This document shows positions 11,661-59,990 of a stretch of DNA of 64,000 nucleotides, one piece after another. The stretch's first letter is position 1. The number at the start of each line of letters is the position of its first letter. A program made the translations under genes and the position numbers. The stretch is from Blastococcus saxobsidens (GTDB lineage: Bacteria > Actinomycetota > Actinomycetes > Mycobacteriales > Geodermatophilaceae), in assembly GCF_002938435.1 (NCBI RefSeq), contig NZ_POQT01000005.1, positions 62,001-126,000 of the forward strand, read 5' to 3'. The notes below the pieces were generated by a model, which saw only the letters and a program-made list of their open reading frames with translations, did no database searches and was not told the DNA's origin.

Positions 11661-11715
11661 GGCCCCTCTACAGGGCCCCGCCGCGAGCGTGCGAGCGGTG
11701 GGGGGCAGAGGGGTC
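11661..11715. repeat. Dispersed two-stem hairpin element, copy A
   Basis: An outer stem (CCCCTCT at 11663-11669 with AGAGGGG at 11707-11713) encloses CAGGG and an inner stem (CCCCGCCGC at 11676-11684 with GCGGTGGGG at 11695-11703) capped by a GAGC..GCGA loop, and ends GGTCCTT. Copies B (20158-20210) and C (59935-59990) keep the architecture with different outer-stem sequences. It lies between the convergent asnB and ErpA-like genes. Confidence 0.75.
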
Positions 11716-11720
11716 CTTCC

Positions 11721-12092
11721 TCAGCTGAAGCTGTCCCCGCAGGCGCACGAGCTGCCGGCGTTGGGGTTGTCGATCGTGAAGCCCTGCTTCTCGATGGAGT
11801 CGACGAAGTCGATCGTCGCGCCACCGAGGTACGGCCCGCTCATGCGGTCGACGATGACCTCGACCCCACCGAACTCGTAGGTCTGGTCGCCGTCGAGGAA
11901 CCGCTCGTCGAAGAACAGCTGGTAGCGCAGACCCGAGCAGCCGCCCGGCTGGACGGCGATGCGCAGCCGCAGGTCGTCGCGACCCTCCTGGTCCAGCAGC
12001 GCCTTGACCTTCGCCGCCGCCGGGTCGCTGAGTACGACGCCGGTGACGCCGGGCGCCCCGCCGTCGACGGTCGTGGTGTCCTGCACCGACAT
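11721..12092 (-). CDS. erpA: A-type iron-sulfur carrier protein (ErpA/IscA-like)
   Basis: A 123-residue HesB/IscA family protein with the three conserved cysteines: one in VQPGGCSGLRYQL and two in the C-terminal CACGDSFS. It holds and passes on Fe-S clusters to client proteins, in keeping with nearby Rieske and lipoyl synthase genes. ATG 12092 follows a GGGAGGA site; the long upstream frame is a shadow. It matches the position of Rv2204c. The ErpA rather than IscA name is by synteny only. Confidence 0.9.
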   Translation of the reverse strand: MSVQDTTTVDGGAPGVTGVVLSDPAAAKVKALLDQEGRDDLRLRIAVQPGGCSGLRYQLFFDERFLDGDQTYEFGGVEVIVDRMSGPYLGGATIDFVDSIEKQGFTIDNPNAGSSCACGDSFS

Positions 12093-12232
12093 GTTGTGTC
12101 CTCCCAGATCCGAGGTGCCCGCTGCGGCACTTCCTGCAGCGGACCAACACCGCCGTGGCGGTGGCTCTTCCCCTGCTGCCGTCCACTGTACGGCTCCGGG
12201 CTCGACCTCCGGGGCAGCGTTGCTCACACACG

Positions 12233-12238
12233 TAGACT
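12233..12238 (+). promoter_or_regulatory. -10 box of a leaderless promoter for the DUF3043 gene
   Basis: TAGACT followed by 8 nt and then the GTG at 12247; no ribosome-binding site is visible. Confidence 0.45.
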
Positions 12239-12246
12239 TCCGGGCC

Positions 12247-12864
12247 GTGAAGCTCCGCCTGCCCGGCCGCCGTGACAGCACCCCCACGCCCGACGCCACC
12301 TCCGGCGACGACGGTGAGCTCACCGCGCAGCTCATGAAGTCCGGCGGCAAGGGGCGCCCGACCCCGAGGCGCGCCGAGGCCCAGGGCCGCCGGCAGGGTC
12401 CTCCCCCGCCGCCGCCCACCACGCGCAAGGAGGCCTACCGGCGGATGCGCGAGCAGCAGGCCGCCCGCCGTGCGGAGACCCGCCAGGGTGCTGCCCGCGG
12501 TGACGACGCCTACCTGCCCGCCCGCGACCGCGGCCCGGTGCGCAAGCTCGTGCGCGACGTCGTCGACAGCCGCCGCAACGTGGGCAGCTTGTTCCTCGCC
12601 GTCGCCGCCGTGGCGCTGATCGGCACGTTCGTGCCGAGCCTGGCCGTGAAGACGTACTCCAGCTTCGTGCTGTTCGGCTTCTTCCTGGTGCTGATCGTGG
12701 ACTCGGTGGTGCTCGGCCGGAAGATCAAGAGCGCCGTCACCGCCCGGTTCCCCGACGAGGACCACAAGATGAAGGGCCTGGTCTGGTACGGCATCAGCCG
12801 GTCGACCATGATCCGCCGGTGGCGCTTCCCCAAGCCCGAGGTCCCGCTCGGCGCGAACGTCTGA
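12247..12864 (+). CDS. DUF3043 membrane protein
   Basis: A 205-residue protein with a basic, Pro-rich N-terminal half (about residues 1-100, with RKEAYRRMREQQAARRAE) and two transmembrane helices (LFLAVAAVALIGTFVPSL and FVLFGFFLVLIVDSVVLG), then the conserved IKSAVTARFPDEDHKMKGLVW segment. This is the DUF3043 family (Rv2206 type). Function is unknown. The start was chosen for the leaderless box and because the conserved KLRLPGRR opening begins there. Confidence 0.85.
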   Translation: MKLRLPGRRDSTPTPDATSGDDGELTAQLMKSGGKGRPTPRRAEAQGRRQGPPPPPPTTRKEAYRRMREQQAARRAETRQGAARGDDAYLPARDRGPVRKLVRDVVDSRRNVGSLFLAVAAVALIGTFVPSLAVKTYSSFVLFGFFLVLIVDSVVLGRKIKSAVTARFPDEDHKMKGLVWYGISRSTMIRRWRFPKPEVPLGANV

Positions 12865-12893
12865 CGCAGGCCCCCCCCTGCGCGGGGGCGCTG

Positions 12894-13697
12894 ATGCGGG
12901 TCACCCTCCTGGGCACGGGCGCCGCCGACGGCTGGCCCAACCCGTGGTGCGAGGGCCCGTCGTGCGCCGACGCACGCCTGCGCGGCGAGCTGCGCCGTCC
13001 GACGTCGGCACTGGTGGACGGCGTGCTGCTGCTCGACCTCTCCCCCGCACCACCACCGGTCGAGGTGTCCCTGGCCCGGGTGCACACGGTCCTGGTCACC
13101 CACGACCACCCCGACCACTGCGCACCCCTGTCGCTGCTCGCCCGCCAGTGGGTCCGCCGGTCCCAGCCGCTCGCCGTCGCCGGTCCCGCCCCGGCACTGG
13201 AGGCGGTGCGGCCGTGGCTCGCCCCCGACGACCCGGTGGACCTGGTCCCCGTCGCCCCCGGCACGGCTCTCGAGCGGTCGGGCTACCGCGTGCGCGCGCT
13301 GCACGCCGCCCACGAGGTGCCCGCCGTGCTCTACGACGTGACCGGACCCGACGGCGCCCGGCTGTTGTACGCCACCGACACCGGCCCGCTCCCCGAGGCG
13401 ACGCTCGAGGCCACCCGCGGCGCCGCCTACGACCTGGTGCTCCTGGAGGAGACGTTCGGGACGGTGACCGGCCACGGGACCGGGCACCTGGACCTGGCGA
13501 CCTTCCCGGCGCAGTTGGACCGGCTGACGGACGTCGGGGCGGTGACCCCCGGCACCGACGTCGTCGCCGTGCACCTGGGGCACCACAACCCGCCGGCCGC
13601 GGAGCTGACCGGGGTGCTGGCCCGGCTCGGCGCGCGCCTCCTCGCCGACGGCGACTCCGTGACGACCCGGTGCGCGGCGGCCGTCCCCGGCGCCTAA
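12894..13697 (+). CDS. MBL-fold metal-dependent hydrolase
   Basis: A 267-residue metallo-beta-lactamase fold protein. It has the N-terminal LLGTGAADGWPNPWCEGPSCADARLR type opening of PhnP-like hydrolases (Cys-containing metal loop) and the metal-binding THDHPDH motif; further ligands are likely in HAAHEVPA, YATDTG and HLGHHN. Closest in style to cyclic-phosphate or RNA-processing MBL enzymes, but the substrate cannot be named. It lies between the DUF3043 and aldo/keto reductase genes, same strand. Confidence 0.8.
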   Translation: MRVTLLGTGAADGWPNPWCEGPSCADARLRGELRRPTSALVDGVLLLDLSPAPPPVEVSLARVHTVLVTHDHPDHCAPLSLLARQWVRRSQPLAVAGPAPALEAVRPWLAPDDPVDLVPVAPGTALERSGYRVRALHAAHEVPAVLYDVTGPDGARLLYATDTGPLPEATLEATRGAAYDLVLLEETFGTVTGHGTGHLDLATFPAQLDRLTDVGAVTPGTDVVAVHLGHHNPPAAELTGVLARLGARLLADGDSVTTRCAAAVPGA

Positions 13698-13708
13698 CGT
13701 CCCCCTTC

Positions 13709-14692
13709 GTGGAATTCAGACGCCTCGGCCGCTCCGGCCTGACCATCTCCGAGATCGCGTACGGCAACTGGCTCACCCACGGCGGGCAGGTCGAGGAGGA
13801 CGCGGCGCACGCCTGCGTCCGCGCGGCCCTCGACGCCGGGATCACCACGTTCGACACCGCCGACGTCTACGCCGGCACTCGCGCCGAGACCGTGCTCGGG
13901 GCCGCCCTCGACGGCCACCGCCGGGAGTCCATCGAGCTGTTCACGAAGGTCTACTGGCCCACCGGGCCCGGGCGGAACGACCGCGGCCTCGGGCGCAAGC
14001 ACGTCATCGAGAGCTGCCACGCCTCGCTGCGCCGGCTGCGAACCGACTACGTCGACCTGTACCAGGCCCACCGCTACGACCCGTCCGTGCCGCTCGAGGA
14101 GACGATGACCGCCTTCGCCGACCTGGTGCGGCAGGGCAAGGCGCTCTACATCGGCGTCTCGGAGTGGAACGCCGGGCAGATCGCCGCCGGTGCCGCGCTG
14201 GCCCGGGAGCTCGGCATCCACCTGATCAGCAACCAGCCGCAGTACTCGATGCTGTGGCGGGTCATCGAGGCCGAGGTCGTGCCGACGTCGGAGCAGGAGG
14301 GGCTGTCCCAGATCGTCTGGTCGCCGCTGGCGCAGGGCATCCTCACCGGCAAGTACCAGCCGGGGCAGCAGCCACCCCCGGACAGCCGGGCCGGCCACGC
14401 CGAGGCGGGTCAGTCGATGCAGCCCTTCATGCGCGACGACATCCTCGCGCGGGTCCAGGAGCTGCGGCCGGTCGCCGACGACCTGGGGCTGTCGATGGCC
14501 CAGCTGGCCGTGGCCTGGGTGCTGCAGAACCGGAACGTGGCCGCGGCCATCATCGGCGCCAGCCGGCCCGAGCAGGTGGCGGACAACGTCAAGGCCGCCG
14601 GCGTGACGCTGGACGCGGACGTCCTGACGCGCATCGACGACGTGCTGGGCGAGGTCGTGGAGCGCGACTCGTCCAAGACCGCCCGCGGCTGA
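13709..14692 (+). CDS. Aldo/keto reductase
   Basis: A 327-residue AKR barrel protein. The opening EFRRLGRSGLTISEIAYGNW, the FDTADVYAGTRAE motif (catalytic Asp and Tyr), the Lys of LFTKVYW and the His of LYQAHRYD are all in order, with a C-terminal IIGASRPEQVADN cofactor-binding loop. It resembles the potassium-channel beta-subunit/YghZ branch that reduces carbonyls with NADPH. The GTG at 13709 has TAACGT 8 nt upstream, overlapping the previous stop codon, so it may have its own leaderless promoter. Confidence 0.93.
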   Translation: MEFRRLGRSGLTISEIAYGNWLTHGGQVEEDAAHACVRAALDAGITTFDTADVYAGTRAETVLGAALDGHRRESIELFTKVYWPTGPGRNDRGLGRKHVIESCHASLRRLRTDYVDLYQAHRYDPSVPLEETMTAFADLVRQGKALYIGVSEWNAGQIAAGAALARELGIHLISNQPQYSMLWRVIEAEVVPTSEQEGLSQIVWSPLAQGILTGKYQPGQQPPPDSRAGHAEAGQSMQPFMRDDILARVQELRPVADDLGLSMAQLAVAWVLQNRNVAAAIIGASRPEQVADNVKAAGVTLDADVLTRIDDVLGEVVERDSSKTARG

Positions 14693-14700
14693 TCCGTGAC

Positions 14701-14733
14701 CTCTCCCGGCTCCGGCAGCCGGAGCCGGGAGAG
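14701..14733. terminator. Terminator between convergent genes
   Basis: Hairpin with arms CTCTCCCGGCTCCGG and CCGGAGCCGGGAGAG and a 3-nt loop, 8 nt after the aldo/keto reductase stop and close to the end of the convergent 70-residue gene. Confidence 0.8.
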
Positions 14734-14766
14734 GATCCCGGCCGAGCCTCCACCTCGACCTGAGGG

Positions 14767-14979
14767 TCAGGTGGCGGCGAGCCCCATCGGGCCGTAGGCC
14801 TTCTCGTCCCCGTCGAAGAGGGTGACCGTGGCGACGCCGCGGTCGAGCAGCTCCCGCCAGTTCTCCCCCAGCCACGACTCCGCGTCGCTCTGGTTGTCGG
14901 AGTCGGGTACCTCCACCCCGACCGAGGCCGGGTCGAGGGTGGATCCGGACGGGTCCTCGAGACGCCAGTGCCAGCTCAT
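14767..14979 (-). CDS. Small conserved actinobacterial protein
   Basis: A 70-residue acidic protein, starting MSWHWRLEDPSGSTL and containing SQSD-like SDAESWLGENWRELLDRGVATVTLF and a KAYGPMGL end. Short proteins with this WxWR start, AESWLGE core and YGPM ending occur across actinobacteria without known function. Start ATG 14979 is supported by TAACCT 6 nt upstream on the minus strand (14986-14991), a leaderless layout. Confidence 0.75.
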   Translation of the reverse strand: MSWHWRLEDPSGSTLDPASVGVEVPDSDNQSDAESWLGENWRELLDRGVATVTLFDGDEKAYGPMGLAAT

Positions 14980-14985
14980 GCAGGG

Positions 14986-14991
14986 AGGTTA
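14986..14991 (-). promoter_or_regulatory. -10 box of a leaderless promoter
   Basis: TAACCT on the minus strand followed by 6 nt and the ATG at 14979. Confidence 0.5.
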
Positions 14992-15087
14992 GCGGCCCAG
15001 ACCGTTGCCCCGATGTGATCGCGTCCTCGATTACCGGCCCACCCGGACGGGCATGGCAGGTCATCGACCGCGTCTACCGGAGGACCG

Positions 15088-15534
15088 ATGACCGCACCCC
15101 GCCCGCACGCCACGGCCGGCGCCACGAGCGCCGACGTGGACCCCTTGCCCGAGAACGCCTCGACAGGTCAGCTGATCGGCCAGCTCACCGAGCAGATCAG
15201 CCGCCTGGTGCGCGACGAGGCAAAGCTGGCCCAGGCCGAGGTGACCCAGAAGGCGAAGAAGCTCGGGTTGGGCGCCGGCCTCTTCGGCGGCGCCGGCCTG
15301 GTCGCCTTCTTCGGGCTGGCCGCGCTGATCACCGCCGCCATCCTCGCCCTGGCCCTCGTGCTGCCCGCCTGGCTGGCCGCCCTCCTCGTCGGCGTCGTCC
15401 TGCTCGCCGTGGCGGGCGCGCTCGCCCTGGTCGGCAAGAAGGACGTGCAGCAGGGTTCGCCGCCCGTCCCCACGGAGGCCATCGCCGGCGTCAAGACCGA
15501 CATCGCGACCGTGAAGGAGAGTGCTCGCCGGTGA
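15088..15534 (+). CDS. Phage holin family (holin-X/DUF1469) membrane protein
   Basis: A 148-residue protein with a soluble N-terminus ending in LTEQISRLVRDEAKLAQAEV and two long helices (FGGAGLVAFFGLAALITAAI and LAALLVGVVLLAVAGALALV), the layout of the actinobacterial holin-X family. These are chromosomal envelope proteins rather than phage lysis genes. A GGAGG lies 6 nt before the ATG. It is first of three overlapping genes with DUF3618 and DUF4235 partners. Confidence 0.85.
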   Translation: MTAPRPHATAGATSADVDPLPENASTGQLIGQLTEQISRLVRDEAKLAQAEVTQKAKKLGLGAGLFGGAGLVAFFGLAALITAAILALALVLPAWLAALLVGVVLLAVAGALALVGKKDVQQGSPPVPTEAIAGVKTDIATVKESARR

Positions 15535-15980
15535 CCAGCTCCGACAGCACCCGCCCGGACGCCGCGAAGGCCGACGGCGCCCCCACGACCCCGGACGAGA
15601 TCAGGGCCGACATCGAGGCGACCCGGCAGGAGCTCGGGCGCACGGTGGACGAGCTCAGCCAGCGCCTCGACGTGCCCGCCCGCGCCAAGGAGGGCGCGGC
15701 CCGCGCGAAGGACACCGCCGTCGAGACCTACCGCGAGAGCCCACCGGCGTTCGCCGGTGCCGGAGCGGCCCTGGCTGGGCTGGTGGGCCTGGTCCTGTGG
15801 CGTCGGCGTCGGGCGCGGCGGCGGGCCAGCACGGAGGACCTCGTCCTCGATGCGCGCGTCGGCCGCAAGCGCCGGGCGCGACGAGCAGGCAGGGAACTGG
15901 CCGCCCGGCGAGCCGCCGCGCGGAAGACCACCAGGAGGGCCGAGAAGGAGGCCCGCCGCATCATGAGGAGAGCGCGTTGA
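15531..15980 (+). CDS. DUF3618 protein
   Basis: A 149-residue protein with the DUF3618 signature TPDEIRADIEATRQELGRTVDELSQRLDV, one transmembrane segment (AGAGAALAGLVGLVLW) and a very basic, Arg/Lys-rich C-terminal tail. It starts at GTG 15531, overlapping the previous stop (GTGA), and its own end overlaps the next start (TTGA). It probably acts at the membrane with its two neighbours; function unknown. Confidence 0.85.
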   Translation: MTSSDSTRPDAAKADGAPTTPDEIRADIEATRQELGRTVDELSQRLDVPARAKEGAARAKDTAVETYRESPPAFAGAGAALAGLVGLVLWRRRRARRRASTEDLVLDARVGRKRRARRAGRELAARRAAARKTTRRAEKEARRIMRRAR

Positions 15981-16249
15981 GCAAGGGAGCCAAGTTCGCC
16001 TACCGGCCGGTCGGCCTGCTGGCCGGCATCGTGGCCGGTTCGCTGAGCGGCATCGTCTTCAAGCAGATCTGGAAGGCGGTCGCCAACGAGGACGACGCCC
16101 CGTCGGCGCTGCAGAGCGAGTACCCGATGCGCGAGGTCGTCCTCGCCGCCGCCATCCAGGGCGCGATCTTCGCGGCCACCAAGGCGGCCATCGACCGCGC
16201 CGGGGCGCGTGGCTTCACCAAGCTGACGGGCAGTTGGCCCGGCGACTGA
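15977..16249 (+). CDS. DUF4235 membrane protein
   Basis: A 90-residue protein starting at TTG 15977, which overlaps the DUF3618 stop and has GAGGAG upstream. The opening SKGAKFAYRPVGLLAGIVAG, the VLAAAIQGAIFAATKAAIDRAGARG segment and the small size match DUF4235. Two short hydrophobic stretches are present. The TTG start and TTGA overlap complete a tightly coupled three-gene set. Confidence 0.85.
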   Translation: MSKGAKFAYRPVGLLAGIVAGSLSGIVFKQIWKAVANEDDAPSALQSEYPMREVVLAAAIQGAIFAATKAAIDRAGARGFTKLTGSWPGD

Positions 16250-16345
16250 CGTCCGCGGCGGCGGGCCGGGAGCACCTCCGCCCGCCGCCGCCCGCTCCGC
16301 ACCACCAGCGGCCGCATCCCGGCGGCGACCACCAGGGGGACGGCG

Positions 16346-17479
16346 ATGGCCGACACGAAGCGCCACGAGAGCGCGGTCGACCGCATCCGGCAGCGCGTCG
16401 AGGAGAAGGCGGCCCGCCGCGCGGCCGCCGCCGAGGCCGCGCGCAGCGGCGGCACACCGCCGGACCCCGAGCGGCTCCCCGACGGCGCCCCGGGCCCCGC
16501 CGAGCTGCCGGGCGTCCACGCACGGACGCCGACGCAGATCCCGTGGAGCGGCTGGAAGCAGATCGTCAAGCGGGCGTGGGCCGAGAACAAGGCCGACAAC
16601 ATGCCGATCATCGCCGGCGGGGTGGCGTTCTTCGGCTTCCTGTCGATCTTCCCCGCGCTGATCGCGCTGATCTCGATCTACGGGCTGATCGCCTCCCCCG
16701 AGACCGTCGCGCGGCAGGTGGAGGACCTGTCGGCACAGCTGCCGGAGGACGCCGCCGGGCTGATCGAGGAGCAGCTGACCGCGATCGTGGCCAACAGCGG
16801 GAGCGCCCTCAGCATCAGCCTCGTCGTCTCCATCCTCGCCGCGCTCTGGAGCGCCTCGGGTGGGGTGGGGAACGTGGTCACCGCGGTCAACATCGCCTAC
16901 GACGAGGTGGAGGCGCGCAGCTTCATCAAGCTGAAGCTCACCTCGCTGGCCCTGACGCTGGGCGCCATCGTCTTCGTGCTGATCACCTTCAGCCTCGTGG
17001 CGGTCGTCCCGGCCGTGCTCGAGGCGCTCCCGCTGGGCGTCGTCGGGACGATCCTCGCCCAGGTGGCGCGGTGGGTGCTGCTGCTCACCGTCTTCGCCGG
17101 GGCCCTCGCCGTCCTCTACCGGGTGGCCCCGGACCGGGATGCGCCGCGGTTCAGCTGGGTCAGCCTCGGGGCCGTCGTCGTCACCGTCATCTGGGCCGCG
17201 GTCAGCGTCGGCTTCGCGGTGTACGTGGACAACTTCGGGTCCTACGACAAGACCTACGGCGCGATCGCCGGCGTGATCGTGCTGATGCTGTGGCTGTACC
17301 TCACCTGCTACCTGGTGCTGCTGGGCGCGGAGATCAACGCGGAGGCCGAGCACCAGACGGCGCGGGACACCACCGACGGCGAGCCGGAGCCGATGGGCGA
17401 CCGCGGCGCCGTCGTCGCCGACACGCTGCCTCCCAAGCCGGAGCCGGAGAAGGGCGACAGCGACCCGACCCGCAAGTAG
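16346..17479 (+). CDS. YihY/BrkB family inner-membrane protein
   Basis: A 377-residue protein with a charged N-terminal region (about 1-70), then six or so transmembrane helices beginning at NMPIIAGGVAFFGFLSIFPALIAL and including LWSASGGVGNVVTAVNIAYDE and MLWLYLTCYLVLLGAEINAE, the YihY/BrkB family pattern. The family was once called ribonuclease BN in error. Its role is unclear (envelope or transport). It lies 96 bp after the DUF4235 gene, same strand. Confidence 0.88.
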   Translation: MADTKRHESAVDRIRQRVEEKAARRAAAAEAARSGGTPPDPERLPDGAPGPAELPGVHARTPTQIPWSGWKQIVKRAWAENKADNMPIIAGGVAFFGFLSIFPALIALISIYGLIASPETVARQVEDLSAQLPEDAAGLIEEQLTAIVANSGSALSISLVVSILAALWSASGGVGNVVTAVNIAYDEVEARSFIKLKLTSLALTLGAIVFVLITFSLVAVVPAVLEALPLGVVGTILAQVARWVLLLTVFAGALAVLYRVAPDRDAPRFSWVSLGAVVVTVIWAAVSVGFAVYVDNFGSYDKTYGAIAGVIVLMLWLYLTCYLVLLGAEINAEAEHQTARDTTDGEPEPMGDRGAVVADTLPPKPEPEKGDSDPTRK

Positions 17480-17491
17480 CGGACGGCCCGG

Positions 17492-18595
17492 TCAGCGGAC
17501 GCGGGAGGGCATGAACGGCGGCCGGACGGCCTCGACCGCCAGCGTGCGCCCACGGACGTCGACGGCCAGCCCGGCCCCCTCGACGACCCCCGCGGCCGAG
17601 TCGAGGAGGGCCAGGCCGATCCCCACCCGCAGCGAGGGCGAGAACGTCCCGCTGGTCACCGTGCCGACCGACGCGCCGTCCGGGCCCAGCACGGTCATGC
17701 CCGGGCGCGGGCTCTGCCGCCCGGCCGCCCGCAGCCCCCAGAGCAGCCGGGCGGGCCCGGCCTCCTTCTCCGCCAGCAGCGCCTCGCGCCCCCAGAAGGC
17801 CGGCTTGCCCCAGCCGACCGCCCAGCCGGCCCGCGCCTGCACCGGGGTGATGTCCCCGGAGAGCTCGTGGCCGTGCAGCGGGTAGCCCATCTCGGTGCGC
17901 AGGGTGTCCCGCGCGCCCAGCCCGCACGGGCGGATGCCGAGGTCCTGCCCCGCCTCGAGCAGGGCGTCCCACAGGGCGGCGGCGTGCTCCGCCCCGACCA
18001 TCAGCTCGTAGCCGTGCTCGCCGGTGTAGCCGGTGCGGCAGACCGTCACCTCGGCACCGCCCGCGCCGGACCCGGTCACGAAGGACATGTAGGACAGCTC
18101 GCCCGGCATGCCGAGCAGCTCGAGGACCTGCAGCGACCGCGGCCCCTGCACCGCCAGCACGGCGACGTCGGCGTGCCGGTCGGTCACCGCCACCCCCGCG
18201 GGCGCCGCCTCGGCCAGCCGGCGGAGGACCCCGGCGGCGTTCGCCGCGTTGGGCACCAGCAGCACGTCGTCGTCGCCGCGCAGGTAGACGATCAGGTCGT
18301 CGACGACACCGCCGTCGTCCTGGCAGCACAGCGTGTACTGCGCGCGACCGGGCCCGATGCGGGACAGGTCGTTGGTCAGGCAGCTGTCCACGAACGCTGC
18401 CGCGCCCGGTCCGCGCACCGTGCCGGTGCCCAGGTGGGAGACGTCGAAGAGCCCCACGCCCTCGCGGACGGCGGCGTGCTCGGCCAGCACCCCACCCCCG
18501 GCGTACTCGATCGGCATCGACCAGCCGCTGAAGTCGGCCAGCTTGGCGCCGGCGGCCACGTGCCGGTCGTGCAACGGGGAGGTCAGCGGGCTCAC
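17492..18595 (-). CDS. gcvT: Glycine cleavage system T protein (aminomethyltransferase)
   Basis: A 367-residue tetrahydrofolate-dependent aminomethyltransferase. The opening [20 protein letters not shown], the [14 protein letters not shown] motif and the [15 protein letters not shown] segment are characteristic. It releases ammonia and transfers the methylene group from the lipoylated H protein, so it depends on the lipB/lipA products. The GTG at 18595 has TAGCGT 7 nt upstream on the minus strand. The gene is divergent from pepA with only 35 bp between starts. Confidence 0.95.
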
Positions 18596-18602
18596 GCGCT
18601 GC

Positions 18603-18608
18603 ACGCTA
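18603..18608 (-). promoter_or_regulatory. -10 box of the gcvT leaderless promoter
   Basis: TAGCGT on the minus strand, 7 nt before the gcvT GTG. It is 10 bp from the facing -10 box of pepA. Confidence 0.5.
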
Positions 18609-18618
18609 GCGGGATGCC

Positions 18619-18624
18619 TACGAT
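18619..18624 (+). promoter_or_regulatory. -10 box of the pepA leaderless promoter
   Basis: TACGAT on the plus strand, 6 nt before the pepA GTG at 18631. Confidence 0.5.
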
Positions 18625-18630
18625 CAGGCG

Positions 18631-20142
18631 GTGCCACCGACGATCTCCGCGACCGACCACCCGCTCGAGAAGCTGACCGCCGACGCCGTCGTCGTCGCCG
18701 TCGGCAAGGGTCCCGACGGCCCCCTCCCCACACCAGGCGCCGAGGCCGTCGACCGCCTGCTCGGCGGACGGCTCTTCGGCGCGCTGGCCGACCTGGGGGC
18801 CCGCGGGGCGGAGGACGAGGTCACCCGGCTGCCGTCGTTCGGGCAGGGCCCCTTCCCGGTGGTCGCCGTCGTGGGTCTCGGCGCGCCCGACGCGTCCGGC
18901 GGCTACGCCCCGGACGCGGTCCGCCGTGCGGCCGGTGCCGCGAGCCGTGCGCTGCGCGGCCGTCGCACCGTGGTCACCCTGCTCGCCGCCGTCGGGGGCA
19001 CGCCCGACGCCGACCGGCTGCACGCCGTCGGCGAGGGCTCCCTGCTCGGCGCCTACGAGTTCACCGCCTACAAGTCCGACCTGCCGGCCAACCGTCCGAC
19101 GCCGCCGCAGGAGTTCACGGTGGTCGTCCCCGGCGCCGCCGCCGCGGAGACCGCGCTGCGCCGGGTCCGCGCCGTCGCCGACGCCGTCACGCTGGTGCGC
19201 GACCTGGTGAACACCCCGCCCAACGACCTCTTCCCCGCCGAGCTGGCCGCGCGCGGCGCCGCCGCCGGCGAGAAGCTGGGCCTGGCCGCGGAGATCCTCG
19301 ACGAGGACGCGCTCGCCGCCGGTGGCTACGGCGGCATCCTCGCGGTCGGCGGCGGTTCCAGCCGCAAGCCCCGGCTGCTGCGGCTGACCTACTCGGGTGC
19401 GAACGCGCGCAAGAAGATCGCGCTGGTCGGCAAGGGCATCACCTTCGACAGCGGCGGCATCTCGATCAAGCCCGCCGCGAAGATGGAGGACATGAAGAGC
19501 GACATGGCCGGCGCGGCGGCCGTGATCGCCACCGTCTGCCTCGTCGCGCAGCTCCGCCTGCCGGTCGAGGTCATCGCCACCGTGCCGATCGCCGAGAACC
19601 TGCCGAGCGCGACCTCCTACCGCCCGGCCGACGTGGTCACCTTCCGCAACGGCAAGAAGGCCGAGATCACGAACACCGACGCCGAGGGCCGGGTCGTGCT
19701 CGCCGACGCGATCGCCCGCGCCGCCGAGGACCAGCCCGACGTGCTCCTGGAGACCGCCACCCTGACCGGCGCGCAGCTGGTCGCGCTGGGCGGGCGCACC
19801 GCCGGCGTCATGGGCAGCGACGACCTGCGCGACGCCGTCGTCGCCGCGTCCCGGCGCACCGGCGAGGCCATGTGGCCGATGCCGCTGCCGGCCGAGCTGC
19901 GCAAGGGCCTGGACTCCGCGGTCGCCGACATGGTGAACGCCAACGCCGACCGCATGGGCGGCATGCTCGTGGGCGGGCACTTCCTGGCGGAGTTCGTGCC
20001 CGACGGCCTGCCCTGGGCGCACATCGACATCGCCGGGCCGAGCTACAACACCGGCGCCGCGTGGGGCTACACCCCCAAGGGCGGCACCGGTGTGCCGGTG
20101 CGCACCCTGCTGGCGACCATCGAGGCCCTGATCGCCGACTAG
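18631..20142 (+). CDS. pepA: Leucyl aminopeptidase (M17)
   Basis: A 503-residue cytosolic zinc aminopeptidase. The N-terminal macro-like domain is followed by the catalytic domain with [24 protein letters not shown] and the M17 signature NTDAEGR, which carry metal ligands and the catalytic Lys and Arg. It releases N-terminal residues from peptides and in some bacteria also binds DNA. Length is typical. The stop is 15 nt before repeat copy B, which may end its transcript. Confidence 0.95.
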
Positions 20143-20157
20143 GTGACGTGCTGGAAC

Positions 20158-20210
20158 GGCCACCGGCAGGGGCCCGCCGCGAGCTAGCGAGTGGTGGGGG
20201 GCCGGTGGTC
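20158..20210. repeat. Dispersed two-stem hairpin element, copy B
   Basis: Outer stem CCACCGGC (20160-20167) with GCCGGTGG (20201-20208); inner stem CCCGCCGC (20173-20180) with GTGGTGGG (20191-20198); loop GAGCTAGCGA; ends GGTCCTT. Its right half encodes the last residues and the stop of the convergent 119-residue gene. Confidence 0.75.
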
Positions 20211-20543
20211 CTTGGACCAGTCGCGCATCCGCTGCGGGTAGCCGGTCACCTGCGCGTCGTACACCGGGATCGTGAGCTCGCGGGACAGCCGCCGCGCGAC
20301 GTCGGGGCCTCCGATGCGCCGGCGGGTCCACTCGCCGTCGGCGGCCACGAGCACGATCGTCGCCTCCGTGACGGCGGTGCGCGGCTCCACGTAGCCCTCC
20401 ACCCCGCGGCGGGTCGCGACGAACTGCTCGAGGTGGCTGAGGTCGGCGCGCTCCGCGGCGCGGTCCAGCGTCGCGCGCCGGCCGGCGCCACCGCTCCCCC
20501 CGGTGCGGGCCGCTCGCCCGCGCAACCGGTCGAACAGACCCAT
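20184..20543 (-). CDS. Conserved hypothetical protein (119 residues)
   Basis: Starts at ATG 20543 after a GAGGGAGA site, MGLFDRLRGRAARTGG. The C-terminal half, ATIVLVAADGEWTRRRIGGPDVARRLSRELTIPVYDAQVTGYPQRM in two parts, reads as a compact alpha-beta domain known from uncharacterised actinobacterial proteins next to lpd. The last nine residues (KDHRPPTTR) and the stop codon come from repeat copy B, so the C-terminus may have been altered by the element. Function unknown. Confidence 0.7.
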   Translation of the reverse strand: MGLFDRLRGRAARTGGSGGAGRRATLDRAAERADLSHLEQFVATRRGVEGYVEPRTAVTEATIVLVAADGEWTRRRIGGPDVARRLSRELTIPVYDAQVTGYPQRMRDWSKDHRPPTTR

Positions 20544-53510: not shown

Positions 53511-54376
53511 TCGGCGGGAGCCCCGGCCCCCCGGCTGATGACCCAGCCGAAGGCCGCGGCCAGCGGGAACATGAGCACCCCGTAGACGGCCGCGGGCACG
53601 GCGAGCTCGACGTTGCCCAGGACGCTCAGCGCCACGGTGATGGCCAGCGTGCTGTTGTGCACGCCGATCTCGAACGCGCAGGCGATCGCCTGGCCGCGCG
53701 CCACCCCCAGCAGGCGCGGCACGGCGAAGCCGAGGCCGAGGCCGAGCAGGCAGAAGAGCACCGCCGGCAGCCCCACCTGGCGGAGGTACTCCCCCACCCG
53801 GTCCTGCTCGGCCACGATCGTCCCGACGATCACCAGTGCGAGCACCACCGCCGACATGATCCGGACCGGCTCGTCCATGCGGTCGGCGAAGCCCGGGGCC
53901 CGGTTGCGCACGAACATGCCCAGCAGCACCGGCACCAGGACGATGGAGAAGACCTGCAGCGTCTTGCCGAACTGCAGGCCGAGCGCACCGGCGTCGACCG
54001 GGTCGAAGAAGCCGATGGCGAGGTTCGTGACCACGGGCAGGGTGACCACGGCGACCACCGAGTTGATCGCGGTGAGGCTGATGTTGAGCGCGACGTCGCC
54101 CCGGAAGAGGTGGCTGAACAGGTTCGCGGTGGTCCCGCCCGGCGAGGCGGCCAGCAGCAGCATGCCGACGGCGAGCAGCGGTGGGAGGTCGAAGGCCAGC
54201 ACCAGGCCGAAGCACAGCACCGGCAGGACGAGCAGCTGGAGCCCCAGCGCCAGGAGCACGACCTTCGGCCGGCGACCGACCTCGGCGAAGTCCCGCGCGG
54301 TCAGGGACAGGCCGAGCCCGAACATGACGACGGCGAGCGCCACGGGCAGGGCGACGGTGACGAGCGCGGAACTCAT
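53483..54376 (-). CDS. Bile acid:sodium symporter (BASS) family transporter
   Basis: A 297-residue membrane protein with about nine helices. The ASPGGTTANLFSHLFRGDVALNISLTAI stretch, read in two parts, and EIGVHNSTLAITVAL carry the BASS-family sodium-site motifs, and the length is typical. Members move organic acids such as bile acids, pyruvate or pantoate; the substrate is not clear. ATG 54376 follows GGAGGT. Confidence 0.88.
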   Translation of the reverse strand: MSSALVTVALPVALAVVMFGLGLSLTARDFAEVGRRPKVVLLALGLQLLVLPVLCFGLVLAFDLPPLLAVGMLLLAASPGGTTANLFSHLFRGDVALNISLTAINSVVAVVTLPVVTNLAIGFFDPVDAGALGLQFGKTLQVFSIVLVPVLLGMFVRNRAPGFADRMDEPVRIMSAVVLALVIVGTIVAEQDRVGEYLRQVGLPAVLFCLLGLGLGFAVPRLLGVARGQAIACAFEIGVHNSTLAITVALSVLGNVELAVPAAVYGVLMFPLAAAFGWVISRGAGAPADQAASARSR

Positions 54377-54534
54377 CGGACCTCCGATCGGACACCGCCG
54401 GCGGCGGGGGGTGCCCGCATCATGGGGGACGCAGGTCACAAGTCCCGCGTCCGACCGCCGTGTCCCCCGACCGGGTGTCCGGTCGAAGCCGCCCCGCCCA
54501 TGGCTCGCCCGCTGGCGGGGGAGCTACTGGCGGG

Positions 54535-54849
54535 TCAGGCCTCCCGGCGGAGCTGCGCGGCCGGGCGCGGCCGGCTCGGTGCGCTGGGTGCCGAGAAGCC
54601 GGACCGCTTGTGCGACCCGTCGCAGAACGGCTTGATGCCGGACTTGCCGCACCGGCACAGGGCGATCGTCTCCCGGCCGGGGTCGATCTCGTTGCCGTCC
54701 TGGTCCAGCAGCCGGAAGTCCCCGCGGACGATCAGCGGTCCGTCGCGGTAGGGCGTGATGGTGGCGCCGTCGGTGCTCCCGCCGGGCGGTCCGTCCTCGG
54801 CGTCGACGTCCTCGGGCAGGTCCGGCTCGGCCGGCAGCGGTCGTGACAC
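54535..54849 (-). CDS. CDGSH iron-sulfur domain protein
   Basis: A 104-residue protein with the CDGSH motif CRCGKSGIKPFCDGSHKRSGF read in order as C-x-C, Ser, C and His ligands of a 2Fe-2S cluster. The N-terminus is acidic and the core begins ATITPYRDGPLIVRGDFRLLD. Such proteins handle electrons or clusters; the nearby iron redox enzyme is a likely partner. Starts at GTG 54849, with CATGCT (partial -10 match) 6 nt upstream. Confidence 0.92.
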   Translation of the reverse strand: MSRPLPAEPDLPEDVDAEDGPPGGSTDGATITPYRDGPLIVRGDFRLLDQDGNEIDPGRETIALCRCGKSGIKPFCDGSHKRSGFSAPSAPSRPRPAAQLRREA

Positions 54850-54892
54850 GTTCCCAGCATGCCCTGCCGGCGGCCGCGGGGATCGGCACGGG

Positions 54893-55963
54893 TCAGGGGT
54901 CGGGGAACGTGAGCGTCTCCACCATGCGGTCCAGCACGGGGACGTTGCGCGCGTAGTCGAACTGCGGCAGGCCGACCGTGTCGATCACCAGTGTCCGCGG
55001 CCCCTGCGCTCCACTCCCGAGGTCGACCACGTAGCCGGTCGTCGGCACACCCGCGGGCCACAGCCCCTCGCCCACGGAGATCCGCTCGACCCGCACCGCC
55101 GGCCGGCCACCGACCGTGGTCGTGCCGCGGCTCAGCTCCCGCCCGGCGCCCGGTCCGGCCACCTGCTCGAACGGCGCCTGCTGCACCGAGGCGGTCACCG
55201 CACCCACCCGGGCGTCGGTGCCCGGCGGCACGGTGAAGGGCTCGGGGGCGAACCGGGTGCACGCCGCCACCGTCTCCCCCAGGTTGACCGACCACCCCTC
55301 TGGATAGGACACCGAGAAGCCGGCCGGGCTGTCGCAGCGCTGCGACAGCGCCACGGGGGGCGCGACCTCGTCCGCGAACAGGTCGACGACGATCCGCTGC
55401 GGGGAGTTCGCCGTCCCGACCGCGAACGGACGCCGCTCGTCCGTCCCGGCGAAGAAGGAGTACCGGCCCTCGACGAGTGCGGCGTCGACGAGCGCCTCCA
55501 GCACGGCGGCCCCGGCGACCGCCTGCCGCTGCGGTCCCTGCCAGACCAGGGCGTCGGCCCCCGCGTCGCCCGGCAGGGCGATGTTGGTCAGCGTGATGCC
55601 GAGGAAGGCCTGGCCGGGCACCTCGACCGGGGCGCCGGAACCCGGCGCCCGCGGCTCGTCGACCCAGCCGACCTGCCAGCCGGCAAGACCGTCGCCGGCG
55701 ACCTCGAAGACGATCCGGTCGAAGCCGTCGTGCGTCCCGAGCCGCACGTCGGTGACGGTCACGGCCGGGCCGCCGCCGGTGGCGACGGACTCGGCGATGT
55801 CCCCGTCGCCGACCGGGCGCACCGCGTCCGGGGCGTCCGGTCCGGGCCCCGGGTGCCCGCTGGACGCGGTCCCGGTGGGGCGGGCGCCGGTGGCGGCGCC
55901 GTCCGCGCCGCAACCGGTCACGAGCAGAGCCGCGCAGGCGACCGCTGCGGGGAGAAGACGCAT
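54893..55963 (-). CDS. AMIN-like domain lipoprotein
   Basis: A 356-residue lipoprotein: signal MRLLPAAVACAALLVTGCG with lipobox LVTGC. A first domain around TVTDVRLGTHDGFDRIVFEV and RIVVDLFADEV resembles AMIN-like domains that bind the cell wall; the second half (FSVSYPEGWSVN to DRMVETLTFP) is a separate beta-rich domain. It probably sits on the outer face of the membrane. Role unknown. It lies 119 bp downstream of glnE on the same strand. Confidence 0.82.
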   Translation of the reverse strand: MRLLPAAVACAALLVTGCGADGAATGARPTGTASSGHPGPGPDAPDAVRPVGDGDIAESVATGGGPAVTVTDVRLGTHDGFDRIVFEVAGDGLAGWQVGWVDEPRAPGSGAPVEVPGQAFLGITLTNIALPGDAGADALVWQGPQRQAVAGAAVLEALVDAALVEGRYSFFAGTDERRPFAVGTANSPQRIVVDLFADEVAPPVALSQRCDSPAGFSVSYPEGWSVNLGETVAACTRFAPEPFTVPPGTDARVGAVTASVQQAPFEQVAGPGAGRELSRGTTTVGGRPAVRVERISVGEGLWPAGVPTTGYVVDLGSGAQGPRTLVIDTVGLPQFDYARNVPVLDRMVETLTFPDP

Positions 55964-56082
55964 CAGTGCCCGCCCAGGTCTCGCCGGTCAGTTCCGCACC
56001 GGGACGTAGCCGCCGGGCGGCGTCGCGAACCGGCGCGCCGCCCGATGCCACCGGATCGTCACACGCCACGGTGCCCCCGGAG

Positions 56083-59000
56083 CTAGCCCGGACCGGACAG
56101 CGGCAGGCCGTAGAACACCTGCTCGACGACCGCCCGCGCACGCCGGGTCGTGCGGCGGTAGTCGTCGACGAACTGGCCGGGGTCCTGGTCCGGGCCGTAC
56201 CCGCAGGCCCGTGCCACGCCGGCCAGCTCGAGCCCGGGGCGCGGTAGCTGGTCGCTGGGCCGCCCGCGGACCAGGAAGATCGCGTTGCGGGCCGTGGTGG
56301 CCAGCGCCCATGCCTCGCGCAGGGACGCCGCCTGGTCCGCGTCGAGGTGCCCGGCGGCGGTGAGCGCGTCCAGCGCCGGGGCGGTCGCCGGCACTCGCAG
56401 CGCCTCGGAGCCGGCGGCGTGCTGCAGCTGGAGCAGCTGGACGGTCCACTCGACGTCGGACAGTCCGCCACGGCCGAGCTTGGTGTGCGTCGCCGGGTCC
56501 GCCCCGCGGGGCAGCCGCTCCCGTTCCACCCGCGCCTTGATGCGCCGGATCTCCGCGACCTGCTCCTGGGTGAGGCCGGCGGCCGGGTAGCGGATCGGGT
56601 CGACCAGCGCCACGAAGTCCGCGCCCAGCTGCTCGTCCCCCGCGACGGGGACCGCCCGCAGCAGCGCCTGCACCTCCCACACCGAGACCCAGCGTTCGTA
56701 GTACTCGCGGAACGCCGACAGGCTGCGCACCAGGGCGCCCTGCCGACCCTCGGGGCGCAGGTCGGCGTCCACCTCGAACGCCGGGTCCGGCCCCGCCTCG
56801 GTGAGCAGCCGGCGCAGGCCGTGGGCGACGGCGTTGGCCGCCGCCGAGGCCTTGGTCTCGTCCGCGCCGGGCCGGGCGCGGTGCACGAACAGGACGTCGG
56901 CGTCGGACCCGAAACCCAGCTCTCCGCCCCCGAGCCGGCCCATCCCGATCACCGCGAGGTCCATCGGCAGGTCGGCGACGTCGGTCCCGGCATCGGCCGC
57001 GTGCGCGCGCAGCGCGACGTCCAGCCCCGCCTGCAGCGTGGCGACGGCGACGTCGGTCAGCGCCCGGCCGACCCGGTGCACGTCCAGCCGGCCGAGCAGG
57101 TCGGCCACCGCGATCCGGAGGAGCTCCTGCCGCCGCAGCCCCCGGACCACGCGGATGCCCGCCTGCGGATCGGGGGCACGCCCGGCGGCCGACCGCCAGG
57201 CCTTGGCCAGTGCGCCGGCATCCCGCGGCTCGAGCTCCGCGTCGTCGGCAAGCAGGCGCAGCGCCTCCGGGGTGCGGGTGAGCAGCGAGGCCACGTACTG
57301 GCTGGAGCCGAGCAGCTGGGCCAGCCGCTCCACCACCTGGCCCTCGTCACGCAGCAGCCGCAGGTACCACTGGTTGCCACCGAGGGCCTCGCTGACCTGG
57401 CGGTAGGCGAGCAGGCCGGCGTCCGGGTTGGGGCAGGACGCGAAGGTCTGGAGCAGGACCGGCAGCAGGTACTTCTGCATCGACGCCGACCGGGACACCC
57501 CACCCGTCAGCGCGGACAGGTGGCGCAGCGCGCCCTCGGGGTCGGCGAAGCCCAGCGCGCGGAGCCAGTCGCCGGCCGCCTTGGAGCCGAGCTGGAGGTG
57601 TTCCCCCGGCACGCGGGCGACCGCGGACAGCAGCGGCCGGTAGAAGAGCTTCTCGTGCAGCCGCCGCACCTCGCGGGTGTGCAGCGCCAGCTCCGCGCGC
57701 AGCACGTCCACGGCGTCCCCGCGGTGGTCGGGCTTGTAGCCCAGCGAGCGGGCCAGCCAGCGCAGCTGCTGCTCGTCGGTGGGCAGCAGGTGGGTGCGGC
57801 GCAGCCGCAGCAGCTGCAGCCGGTGCTCCACGGTGCGGAGGAACCGGTAGGAGGCGACGAGGGTCGCGGCGTCCTCGCGGCCGACGTAGCCGCCGGCCGA
57901 CAGGGCCTGCAGCGCCGGCACGGTGCCGCCCACGCGCAGGTTGGGATCGGCCCGCCCGTGCACCATCTGCAGCAGCTGGACGGCGAACTCGACGTCCCGC
58001 AGCCCGCCACGACCGAGCTTGAGCTCCCGCTCGGCCTGGGCCGGGGGGATGTTGGCCTCGACCCGGCGGCGCATGGCCTGCACCTCGCCGACGAACCCCG
58101 GCCGGTCCCCGGCCTTCCACACCAGGGGCCAGAGCGCGTCGACGTAGGCCCGGCCCAGGTCGGGGTCACCGGCGACCGGCCGCATCTTCAGCAGCGCCTG
58201 GAACTCCCAGGTGTCGGCCCACTGCTCGTAGTAGGCGGTGTGGCCGGCCACGGTCCGCACCAGCGCCCCGCGCTTGCCCTCCGGGCGCAGTGCGGCGTCG
58301 ACCTCCCACGCGGCCTCGTGGCAGATCCGCATGAGGGCCGCGGACACCCGCGTGGCGCTGGCCAGCGCGGCGCTCTCGGCGTCCGTGGGGTCGACCGCCT
58401 CGGCCACGAAGACCACGTCGACGTCGCTGACGTAGTTGAGCTCCCGGCCACCGGTCTTGCCCAGGGCGATGACGCTGAGCCGGCAGGCCGCGGCGTCGTC
58501 GGGCTGCTCGGCGACGGCGACGGCCAGGCCGGCGGTGAGCACGGCGGCGGCGATGTCGGCCAGCTCGACGGCGACCTCCTCCGCCGGCACGGCCTCGCCC
58601 AGGTCACGGCCGGCGAGCGAGAGGATCGCCCGGCGGTAGGCCAGCCGGAGGGCGGCCACCCGCTCGGGACCGGCGTCGGGCGCCCCCTTGCCCAGTCGCA
58701 CGCCCCACGGCGGGTCGTCCGGGTCGGCGCCGACCGCCGCCAGCATCTGGCGCTCGAGCGCCTCCGGCGTGGGCCGCCACGTGCCGTGCCGGTCGTCGTC
58801 GAGCACCTGCCAGTCCAGCGGCCGGGCGGCCAGGTGGTCGGCGAGGCCGGAGCTGGCGCCGAGGACGGAGACCAGGCGGGCGCGCAGGTGCCCGGGGCCG
58901 CGGAGCCGGGCAAGCAGGGCCGCAGCGGCACCGCCGTCGGGATCCTCGGCGTCCAGCGCCTCGACCAGCCGGTGCAGCGAGCGCACGGCGAGGTCGGGGT

Positions 59001-59187
59001 CGCCGGCGCGCGCCAGCGCCGCCACCACCGGACCGGCCTCCGGGTCGGCCGGCTCGTTGCGCCCCAGGTCCCACAGCCCGAGGGCGGGGTCGGAGAGCAA
59101 CCGGGCGGCACGCTCGCCGTCGCCGAAGCCGAAGCGCACCAGCCGGACGACGGCGGGGCGCGGGATCTCCGGGAGCGGAGCGGTCAC
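56083..59187 (-). CDS. glnE: Glutamine synthetase adenylyltransferase/adenylyl-removing enzyme
   Basis: A 1034-residue bifunctional enzyme with two nucleotidyltransferase domains, each with its motif: GKTGGRELNYVSDVDVVF in the N-terminal half and GMGRLGGGELGFGSDADVLF in the C-terminal half, plus LKLGRGGLRDVEF and TKLGRGGLSDVEW linkers. It adds AMP to, or removes it from, the Tyr of GlnA1 (Y405 here). GTG 59187 overlaps the amidotransferase stop (GTGA), so the two are translationally coupled. Convergent order glnA1, glnE, glnA2 matches mycobacteria. Confidence 0.97.
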   Translation of the reverse strand: MTAPLPEIPRPAVVRLVRFGFGDGERAARLLSDPALGLWDLGRNEPADPEAGPVVAALARAGDPDLAVRSLHRLVEALDAEDPDGGAAAALLARLRGPGHLRARLVSVLGASSGLADHLAARPLDWQVLDDDRHGTWRPTPEALERQMLAAVGADPDDPPWGVRLGKGAPDAGPERVAALRLAYRRAILSLAGRDLGEAVPAEEVAVELADIAAAVLTAGLAVAVAEQPDDAAACRLSVIALGKTGGRELNYVSDVDVVFVAEAVDPTDAESAALASATRVSAALMRICHEAAWEVDAALRPEGKRGALVRTVAGHTAYYEQWADTWEFQALLKMRPVAGDPDLGRAYVDALWPLVWKAGDRPGFVGEVQAMRRRVEANIPPAQAERELKLGRGGLRDVEFAVQLLQMVHGRADPNLRVGGTVPALQALSAGGYVGREDAATLVASYRFLRTVEHRLQLLRLRRTHLLPTDEQQLRWLARSLGYKPDHRGDAVDVLRAELALHTREVRRLHEKLFYRPLLSAVARVPGEHLQLGSKAAGDWLRALGFADPEGALRHLSALTGGVSRSASMQKYLLPVLLQTFASCPNPDAGLLAYRQVSEALGGNQWYLRLLRDEGQVVERLAQLLGSSQYVASLLTRTPEALRLLADDAELEPRDAGALAKAWRSAAGRAPDPQAGIRVVRGLRRQELLRIAVADLLGRLDVHRVGRALTDVAVATLQAGLDVALRAHAADAGTDVADLPMDLAVIGMGRLGGGELGFGSDADVLFVHRARPGADETKASAAANAVAHGLRRLLTEAGPDPAFEVDADLRPEGRQGALVRSLSAFREYYERWVSVWEVQALLRAVPVAGDEQLGADFVALVDPIRYPAAGLTQEQVAEIRRIKARVERERLPRGADPATHTKLGRGGLSDVEWTVQLLQLQHAAGSEALRVPATAPALDALTAAGHLDADQAASLREAWALATTARNAIFLVRGRPSDQLPRPGLELAGVARACGYGPDQDPGQFVDDYRRTTRRARAVVEQVFYGLPLSGPG

Positions 59188-59915
59188 GCCCGGGCCCCGG
59201 CGGAGTCGCGCACCAATGCGGCGAACCGGGTCGCGAACGGCTGCCAGGCCTCGGCGACGTCGTCGTGCGCGGCGGCGGCGCGCAGGCACAGGGTCTCGAG
59301 GTCCAGCGGGGCGGCGGCCACGCCGACCGGGTCGCTCTCCGCCCAGGCCCGGACCATCTCCGGCGTCGTCTCGATGTGGAACTGGAGGGCGTAGACGTTG
59401 CGCCCGACCCGGAAGGCCTGGTGGGGGTAGTGCGGGTTGCTCGCCAGCAGGGTGGCGTTCCGCGGCAGCTCCGAGATCTCGTCGTGGTGCCACTGGATGA
59501 CGTCGGGCGACAGCGGGACCGGGCCGAAGACCGGGTCGGCGTCGGCGGCGTCGCGCTTGGCCACCAGCGTGGCGCCGACCTCGGGCCCGTCGACCCCGAC
59601 CCGGGTGCGGCCACCGCCGACCTGCGCCAGCAGCTGCGCCCCCAGGCAGACGGCGAGCGTGGGCACGTCGCCGTCGACCGCCTGGCGCAGGAGCGCACGG
59701 ACGCCGACGAGCTCGGGGCTGGTCGTCTCGTCGTCCATCGAGGACTGCGGACCGCCCAGGACGAGCAGGCCGTCGACACCGTCGAGGGACCCCGGCAGCG
59801 GGTCGCCGAGCCCGAGGTGCCGCTCGTCCAGCTCCAGACCGGCCGCGCGCAGCCACTCCCCCAGCCGAGCGGGCGGGTCGGTCTCGCTCGGGACGACGAC
59901 GAGCAGGCGGGTCAC
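59184..59915 (-). CDS. Class I glutamine amidotransferase-like protein
   Basis: A 243-residue protein with the triad motifs of class I amidotransferases: Cys in LAVCLGAQLLAQ and His/Glu in ALQFHIETTPE. It resembles GMP-synthase-like stand-alone amidotransferases that act on glutamine or gamma-glutamyl compounds. It sits between glnA2 and glnE and overlaps glnE, so a role in glutamine metabolism is likely (inference). GTG 59915 has TAAGCT 7 nt upstream (59923-59928), a leaderless layout. Confidence 0.85.
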   Translation of the reverse strand: MTRLLVVVPSETDPPARLGEWLRAAGLELDERHLGLGDPLPGSLDGVDGLLVLGGPQSSMDDETTSPELVGVRALLRQAVDGDVPTLAVCLGAQLLAQVGGGRTRVGVDGPEVGATLVAKRDAADADPVFGPVPLSPDVIQWHHDEISELPRNATLLASNPHYPHQAFRVGRNVYALQFHIETTPEMVRAWAESDPVGVAAAPLDLETLCLRAAAAHDDVAEAWQPFATRFAALVRDSAGARA

Positions 59916-59922
59916 GGAGGTG

Positions 59923-59928
59923 AGCTTA
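59923..59928 (-). promoter_or_regulatory. -10 box of the amidotransferase-glnE promoter
   Basis: TAAGCT on the minus strand with 7 nt to the GTG at 59915. It lies right after repeat copy C, so glnA2 transcription may stop there and a new transcript begin. Confidence 0.5.
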
Positions 59929-59934
59929 TGGAAC

Positions 59935-59990
59935 GGCCCCCTCGCAGGGACCCGCGGCGTGCGGAGCGCGTCGTGGGGAGCGAGGGGGTC
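59935..59990. repeat. Dispersed two-stem hairpin element, copy C
   Basis: Outer stem CCCCCTCGC (59937-59945) with GCGAGGGGG (59980-59988); inner stem CCCGCGGCG (59951-59959) with CGTCGTGGG (59969-59977); CAGGG between; ends GGTCCTT, 2 nt from the glnA2 stop codon. Confidence 0.75.

Follow-up and report, generated by a model that had tools for sequence, protein, structure and literature searches.

How does a short hairpin come to stand at several places in one bacterial genome with its pairing intact and its paired sequences changed? The question is raised by a 64,000-nucleotide (nt) stretch of the genome of Blastococcus saxobsidens (contig NZ_POQT01000005.1, positions 62,001 to 126,000; hereinafter, the window), which contains three copies (A, B, and C) of a hairpin that share their ends and inner blocks and differ in the arms of the outer stem. 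The original prediction, made from the letters of this stretch, named a family-specific terminator, a regulatory RNA, and a repetitive extragenic palindrome (REP)-like element as the main options. Comparison of the copies within this genome and across its relatives indicates that the repeat is, very probably, a mobile element; a terminator or a regulatory RNA is not supported as its primary nature, given that the copies are insertions missing from many orthologous sites.

Dispersal, covariation, and strand constraint

A covariance model built from 10 copies matched 149 of the 150 candidates scored in the 4.5-Mb genome of B. saxobsidens, with 34-89 bits, so that this genome carries at least 149 copies; BLAST with a 201-base query around copy A gave 43 matches in the same genome, including the query itself and one self-match of a neighbouring terminator-like palindrome. 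Within the family Geodermatophilaceae, 85 of 96 genomes contain matches (E up to 1e-5), and the named loci with copies include ones from Blastococcus haudaquaticus and several Geodermatophilus. No match was found in 11 family genomes, namely, G022 (same genus as B. saxobsidens), G056, and those sampled from genera g22 (4), g25 (4), and g27 (1); G022 and G056 belong to genera that also contain copy-rich genomes. In an order-wide sample, 17 of 121 genomes match, 15 of them in Geodermatophilaceae, and the other two, one in each of two other families (G152 and G161), have 2 and 1 matches that may be contamination. Per-genome counts in relatives are "at least" values, with the best 54 (family) or best 43 (order) scored under strict filters. 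The two G152 copies (L283:99-164 and 2600-2662), one of them next to stacked left halves, may reflect contamination or transfer. Copy C had no match on a plasmid or phage. In agreement with the original prediction, which recognised no named family, Rfam gathering thresholds gave no hits over the window, and the surroundings of copy C gave none even with E up to 1.

The core of the repeat is about 55 nt long (54-57 nt in the window copies) and reaches up to about 75 nt with a left extension. In copies A-C, the order is GGCC with a variable arm, then CAGGG and an inner hairpin, then the complementary arm with GGTCC. In the covariance-model alignment of 130 copies from this genome, 97.2% of the pair cells are paired; covariation is 0.394, compared with 0.154 in shuffled alignments and at most 0.062 with partners slid, and double changes occur at 14 of 21 pairs (369 double-change cells vs 118 shuffled). 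A model-free parse, which succeeded for 120 of 134 copies and distinguished 64 left arms, found 1212 of 1320 outer cells paired, compared with 953 (standard deviation 12, maximum 996, 200 permutations) when right arms were dealt to other copies. Thus, the pairing kept while sequence changes, first noticed in three copies, holds across the repeat family, and the covariance model and search of related genomes then proposed, now run, yield further copies, with arms that pair in nearly all. The dozens of compensated arm variants within one genome make up a natural data set on folded-strand selection.

Near the stem base, one pair has G-U in 112 of its 128 cells, as has an inner pair in 88 of 130; among the remaining 19 pairs, 69 cells are G-U and 17 are A-C. 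The earlier statement that all odd pairs are G-T on the plus strand therefore survives as a bias, with A-C pairs present family-wide. Of 130 copies, 80 have CAGGG as the asymmetric loop and 15 have CAGAG. With RNA parameters, the plus strand is the more stable one in 123 of 130 copies, and with DNA parameters in 120 of 130; it is the constrained strand, whether as RNA or as single-stranded DNA.

The precise end and its targets

The window copies and their surroundings, with genes called by a codon-score gene caller made for this analysis, are as follows.

11613..11648, strand-less: terminator-like palindrome retained next to copy A (from sequence and a BLAST self-match)
11647..11660, plus: left extension of copy A in degenerate form (compare GTGACGTGCTGGAAC; from sequence and the family left extension)
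11661..11716, plus: core hairpin of copy A, arms CCCCTCT/AGAGGGG, 82.2 bits with the covariance model
11721..12092, minus: ErpA-like Fe-S gene (PF01521), with 2 nt between its TGA and the AAGGACC end of copy A
18611..18624, plus: target that is unoccupied here, comprising the pepA promoter's spacer and presumed -10 box (TACGAT)
20143..20157, plus: left extension of copy B, starting immediately behind the pepA stop (TAG, 20140-20142)
20158..20211, plus: core hairpin of copy B, arms CCACCGGC/GCCGGTGG, 72.7 bits with the covariance model
20184..20543, minus: opposing gene cut shorter by copy B, final codons and TAG within the element
59919..59934, plus: left extension of copy C, GGTGAGCTTATGGAAC (from sequence)
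59935..59991, plus: core hairpin of copy C, arms CCCCCTCGC/GCGAGGGGG, 77.7 bits with the covariance model
59994..61343, minus: glnA (PF00120), with 0 nt between its TAG and the AAGGACC end of copy C

Reading the sequence at these positions confirms the three hairpins and their shared blocks. The cores are as originally given, and the left extension, which resembles GGTGACGTGCTGGAAC in all three copies and is degenerate in A, had been omitted. RNAfold places the outer stem, the asymmetric loop, and the inner stem on the plus strand of A, B, and C, and in each the plus strand is more stable than the minus strand; compared with shuffles, the folding energies have z of -1.2 (A), -2.5 (B), and -5.7 (C), so that the energy of copy A by itself is not unusual. 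All three copies do lie at gene ends, as had been noticed; the end that abuts the gene is the GGTCCTT end, and it faces a gene on the opposite strand (the ErpA-like gene for A, with closest named relatives in Blastococcus, Geodermatophilus, Klenkia, and Modestobacter, and glnA for C). Copy B indeed starts after the pepA stop; its other end, however, is inside the opposing predicted gene, the stop of which (TAG, 20184-20186) is in the apical loop of the element. Here the repeat turned coding sequence: the protein ends in SKDHRPPTTR-stop, with the last residues contributed by the element, and relatives without the element have a different continuation. The same insertion is present in G009, with identical arms and one compensated inner pair.

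The adjacency to stop codons is general. Of 114 copies in this genome, 84 have a facing stop codon no more than 8 nt from the GGTCCTT end, as do 38 of 52 copies from relatives, compared with 3.0% of random intergenic points, the latter drawn from the intergenic gaps as they stand, element copies included. The 114 are those of the 149 copies that could be counted, the others being 15 without sequence, 19 inside predicted genes, some of which are probably spurious, and 1 with a single neighbour. The 52 come from 63 hits after omission of 3 same-place repeats, 2 contig-end tandem copies, 1 opposite-strand palindrome, and 5 weaker hits; they include some orthologous sites and two copies from G152, exclude the hits from scoring of the pepA promoter, and use a "minus10-like" class that means merely a start codon within 35 nt. 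Together with copy B, which supplies a stop codon, this stop-flush insertion means that repeats can enter gene ends with little damage. In 105 of 123 parsed copies, a TCA, CTA, or TTA has its start no more than 10 nt beyond GGTCC; twenty bases further on, the count is 9 of 123. Given that these triplets are also found at -10 boxes, we read this as a sequence preference rather than a requirement for a stop codon. The left end, in contrast to the right one, is variable: TGGAAC or TGGAGC precedes GGCC in 46 of 114 parsed copies, and fewer have the full GGTGACGTGCTGGAAC.

Such placement is compatible with a family-specific transcription terminator or 3' mRNA element that benefits the host and spreads occasionally, with pairing needed by each host gene. 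The stems are stable, and the copies are mostly downstream of genes: 75 lie in unidirectional and 30 in convergent spaces (105 of 114), and only 9 of 114 between divergent genes. Moreover, in G008, a copy (L244:18101-18166) begins immediately past a tRNA-Val gene (18016-18088), at a place occupied in G001 by a terminator-like hairpin, possibly a replacement of a terminator. Nevertheless, we consider this explanation unlikely. In 95 of 114 cases, the precise end adjoins a minus-strand gene, and the transcript of that gene carries the weaker-folding version; the left-hand gene is on the plus strand in 40 of 114 and could read the stronger one, which tempers this objection. There is no U-run in the three window copies, where the plus strand ends with GGTCCTT(C/G) and the minus strand with GGCC followed by GCCCG, GTTCC, and GTTCC. 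Other copies stand at -10 boxes with no gene to terminate on that side. Finally, a terminator-like hairpin survives beside copy A, and such hairpins occupy the same place at the ErpA site in many relatives that lack the element.

Filled and empty sites, turnover, and the search for a mobiliser

Orthologous sites differ in the presence of the repeat. At the 3' end of the ErpA-like gene, read in 21 genomes, the element is present in this genome (G000), in the sister pair G001/G008, with similar arms, and in G017 and G020, which have the common arm type CCCCGTCC and differing interiors; thus, this one site has at least three arm types. G019 retains a remnant, and the remaining genomes have nothing or another repeat; among 16 named family loci, only that of Geodermatophilus aquaeductus carries a copy. 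At the pepA promoter, empty in this genome, inspection by eye found 14 of 22 relatives filled, 6 of these with degenerate copies (<40 bits), 7 empty, and G004 ambiguous. Thirteen of the filled relatives have a visible right end; the distance between GGTCC (GGCC in G016) and the TA of the -10 box is 3 nt in 11 of them and 4 nt in the other 2. At the glnA 3' end, also judged by eye, 4 of 23 genomes have the element, with a possible remnant in G013. Filled and empty sites are found even between genomes that are about 91% identical (for example, G008 and G001), which suggests that the family may still be active.

Some of the same gene ends hold other repeats. In other genomes of the genus, the 3' ends of the ErpA-like gene and pepA hold a second intergenic repeat (about 130 nt, TCGTCCCGAGTGG...CCGGGGGACGGCACCTGGCCGCGGTGCGATCCGGAGGATCGC), complete or in part; its core is absent from the window and from the own-genome sequence searched. 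At the pepA 3' end, different relatives carry short palindromes, namely, GCTTTTCCGCGGAAAAGC, GTGCACTTTCCGCC..GGCGGAAAGTGCAC, and GATCAGGTGACCTGATC with GTCCTCCCTCACCG-like repeats. The loci in relatives are:

L221, L216, L228, L226, L227, L224, L222, L220: second repeat of about 130 nt
L195, L185, L205, L206, L183, L184: short palindromes at the pepA 3' end

Occupied sites turn over. Some hold stacks in which older left halves, cut near the apical loop, are followed by one full copy (for example, in G005), and in G020 a short copy lies within the inner stem of its copy C. A contig end in G013 (L277:8445-8642) has three head-to-tail copies with an exact 66-nt period, which may be an assembly artefact. 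Turnover of this kind raises the possibility that no enzyme is involved: template switching during replication and fold-back would copy and stack left halves and make the arms complementary, so that covariation would need no selection. The exact 45-nt tandem repeats of left halves at C7:71383-71518, the stacks that have lost their old right halves, the copy at L287:13201-13269, whose two halves match across the loop as exact reverse complements, the outcome expected of fold-back correction, and the recombinant-looking copy at glnA of G005 all fit this scheme. Fold-back, however, would wipe out the conserved G-U pair at the stem base and the asymmetric loop; perfect complementarity across the loop was found in 0 of 130 copies in this genome; and dispersal to new sites with one precise end is left unexplained. 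We regard this scheme as quite unlikely.

The best reading, held with moderate confidence, is a REP-like non-autonomous mobile hairpin that is recognised as a folded plus strand. The short repeats, each a single nested hairpin that combines an asymmetric loop with a conserved G-U close to its base, some preceded by GGTGACGTGCTGGAAC, would be recognised in their folded plus-strand form (single-stranded DNA or RNA) by machinery acting in trans; the GGTCCTTC end would be joined precisely beside TA- or TCA-type sites and the other end loosely. In this GC-rich genome, such targets would mostly be the stop codons of facing genes and, in some cases, -10 boxes. The data show dispersal, occupied and empty orthologous sites, a single precise end, a preference for certain sites, constraint on the plus-strand structure, and turnover where sites are occupied; we infer the need of copying for pairing and the action of a single trans-acting enzyme; that folding is maintained for copying by such an enzyme appears somewhat better than an even bet. 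More tentatively, and at rather less than even chances, the repeat might represent a family-wide class of folded-strand elements with its own mobilising enzyme, other than Y1, IS110, or a reverse transcriptase, that targets stop codons and -10 boxes and diversifies its arms under a pairing constraint.

Several observations weigh against the mobile hairpin. The pairing and covariation counts for the 130 copies rest on an alignment fitted to the model, and the element's own TTC inflates the triplet count (its bases take part in 17 TCA, at offset 1, and in 21 CTA, at offset 2). In G005, copy C at glnA has two mismatched arm pairs, so that strict pairing fails there and the expectation that arms always pair stands for nearly all copies only; this copy joins the resident left arm to a foreign-looking right half. 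Movement was not directly observed, and the filled orthologous sites may each descend from one old insertion with content later replaced. Among the pairs compared base by base at a filled site, even the closest are about 9% different, and, for this reason, left junctions are not fixed to the base. The candidate mobilisers, too, offer no support. The Y1 transposase RAYT/TnpA_REP (PF01797) was found in 0 of 57 family genomes, and the control detected it in 5 of 14; Y2 (IS91-like) was found in 1 of 57, with 0 of 14 in the control, a weak test; a reverse transcriptase (RVT_1) is present in 4 of 23 genomes of the genus, and not in this one; and IS110 is present in 36 of 57 genomes, unrelated to copy number.

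As candidates, the IS91-like Y2, with its undetected control, and the reverse transcriptase, which does not track copy number, were rejected, and so was IS110, because it is absent from the copy-rich G013, G002, and G049 and present in the zero-match G056. A pattern search for a gene-bearing parent with the same left extension gave no such parent among the sites read, with 59 sites at up to 3 mismatches and 15 for the reversed control; eight further places (150-200 nt read) are full, truncated, or internally deleted copies or chance sites, and several 3-mismatch sites were left unread. Because zero-match genomes occur in copy-rich genera, the hunt for the mobiliser is a tractable presence/absence problem.

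Two other kinds of mobile element account for parts of the evidence. The small size, dispersal, and inverted-repeat-like ends of the copies are reminiscent of a miniature inverted-repeat transposable element of a classical DDE transposon. The arm sequences are not conserved, the two ends are unequal in precision, and target duplication was not detected (mean flank alignment score 5.684 vs 5.685 shuffled, 114 copies, in a test blind to duplications of 2-3 bp), the single apparent case, L252:5853, having failed to generalise; such an origin is thus very unlikely. The constant 3' end, variable 5' end, and RNA-like plus-strand structure would suit a retroelement akin to short interspersed elements, spread by target-primed reverse transcription; considering the scarcity of RVT_1 in the genus and its absence here, we deem this the least probable explanation.

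Comparison with known repeats and transposons

Among the papers listed by the literature searches, which leave most subscription papers out of reach, none describing this repeat was found, and the papers seen do not describe its spread in one actinobacterial family, its two-tier covarying fold, its -10-flush insertion, or the combination of these without Y1. Among short repeats, the mycobacterial interspersed repetitive units are also found at stop and start codons, and to our knowledge no covarying arms are known in them.

The REP-like option of the original prediction holds as a likeness, and membership in the REP/RAYT system is rejected by the lack of Y1 and of a conserved GTAG or CGTC tag at the stem. 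The folded strand, the target-flush end, and the lack of a detected duplication are reminiscent of single-strand transposition as in REP or IS200/IS605 elements. REPs are palindromes of 20-50 nt with high copy number, according to the portion of PMC8266576 available, and the present core is 54-57 nt, also in high copy number. As described in the accessible part of PMC3733652, REPs lie between convergent or unidirectional genes, have GT pairs in the stem, and carry GTAG termini that give a TAG stop. The same intergenic preference is found here (105 of 114), and stop adjacency and the G-T bias, being REP features to the extent that this source covers them, are not new in themselves. GTAG-tagged REPs are thus similar as high-copy short palindromes, mostly downstream of genes, with G-T pairs and termini that supply TAG; unlike them, the present element has no GTAG at the hairpin, a longer core, a two-tier stem with an asymmetric loop, and no Y1. 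GTAG does precede AAGGACC in 11 of 78 stop-flush copies, where it is the gene's own stop; by eye, the consensus ends across 134 copies are GAAGGACC and GGCC, with GTTCC after GGCC in some.

The same excerpt states that high-copy bacterial palindromes are usually linked to Y1 or spread without explanation, and the CGTC-tagged REPs it mentions (PMC3733652) are likewise high-copy palindromes for which no dedicated transposase was found. Unlike in these REPs, CGTC in our element occurs only in the far left extension, on the minus strand, not as an unpaired tag of the stem, and the stem is a different one.

Transposons of the IS200/IS605 type are not known to make a target duplication, and none was detected here. 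The present element differs from them in being too small for a gene, and no such transposase was found in 57 genomes. The two are alike, as far as the sections of PMC8266576 and PMC6006769 at hand describe the transposons, in the recognition of a folded single strand, which for our hairpin is the proposed mode, and in an end that is flush with the target.

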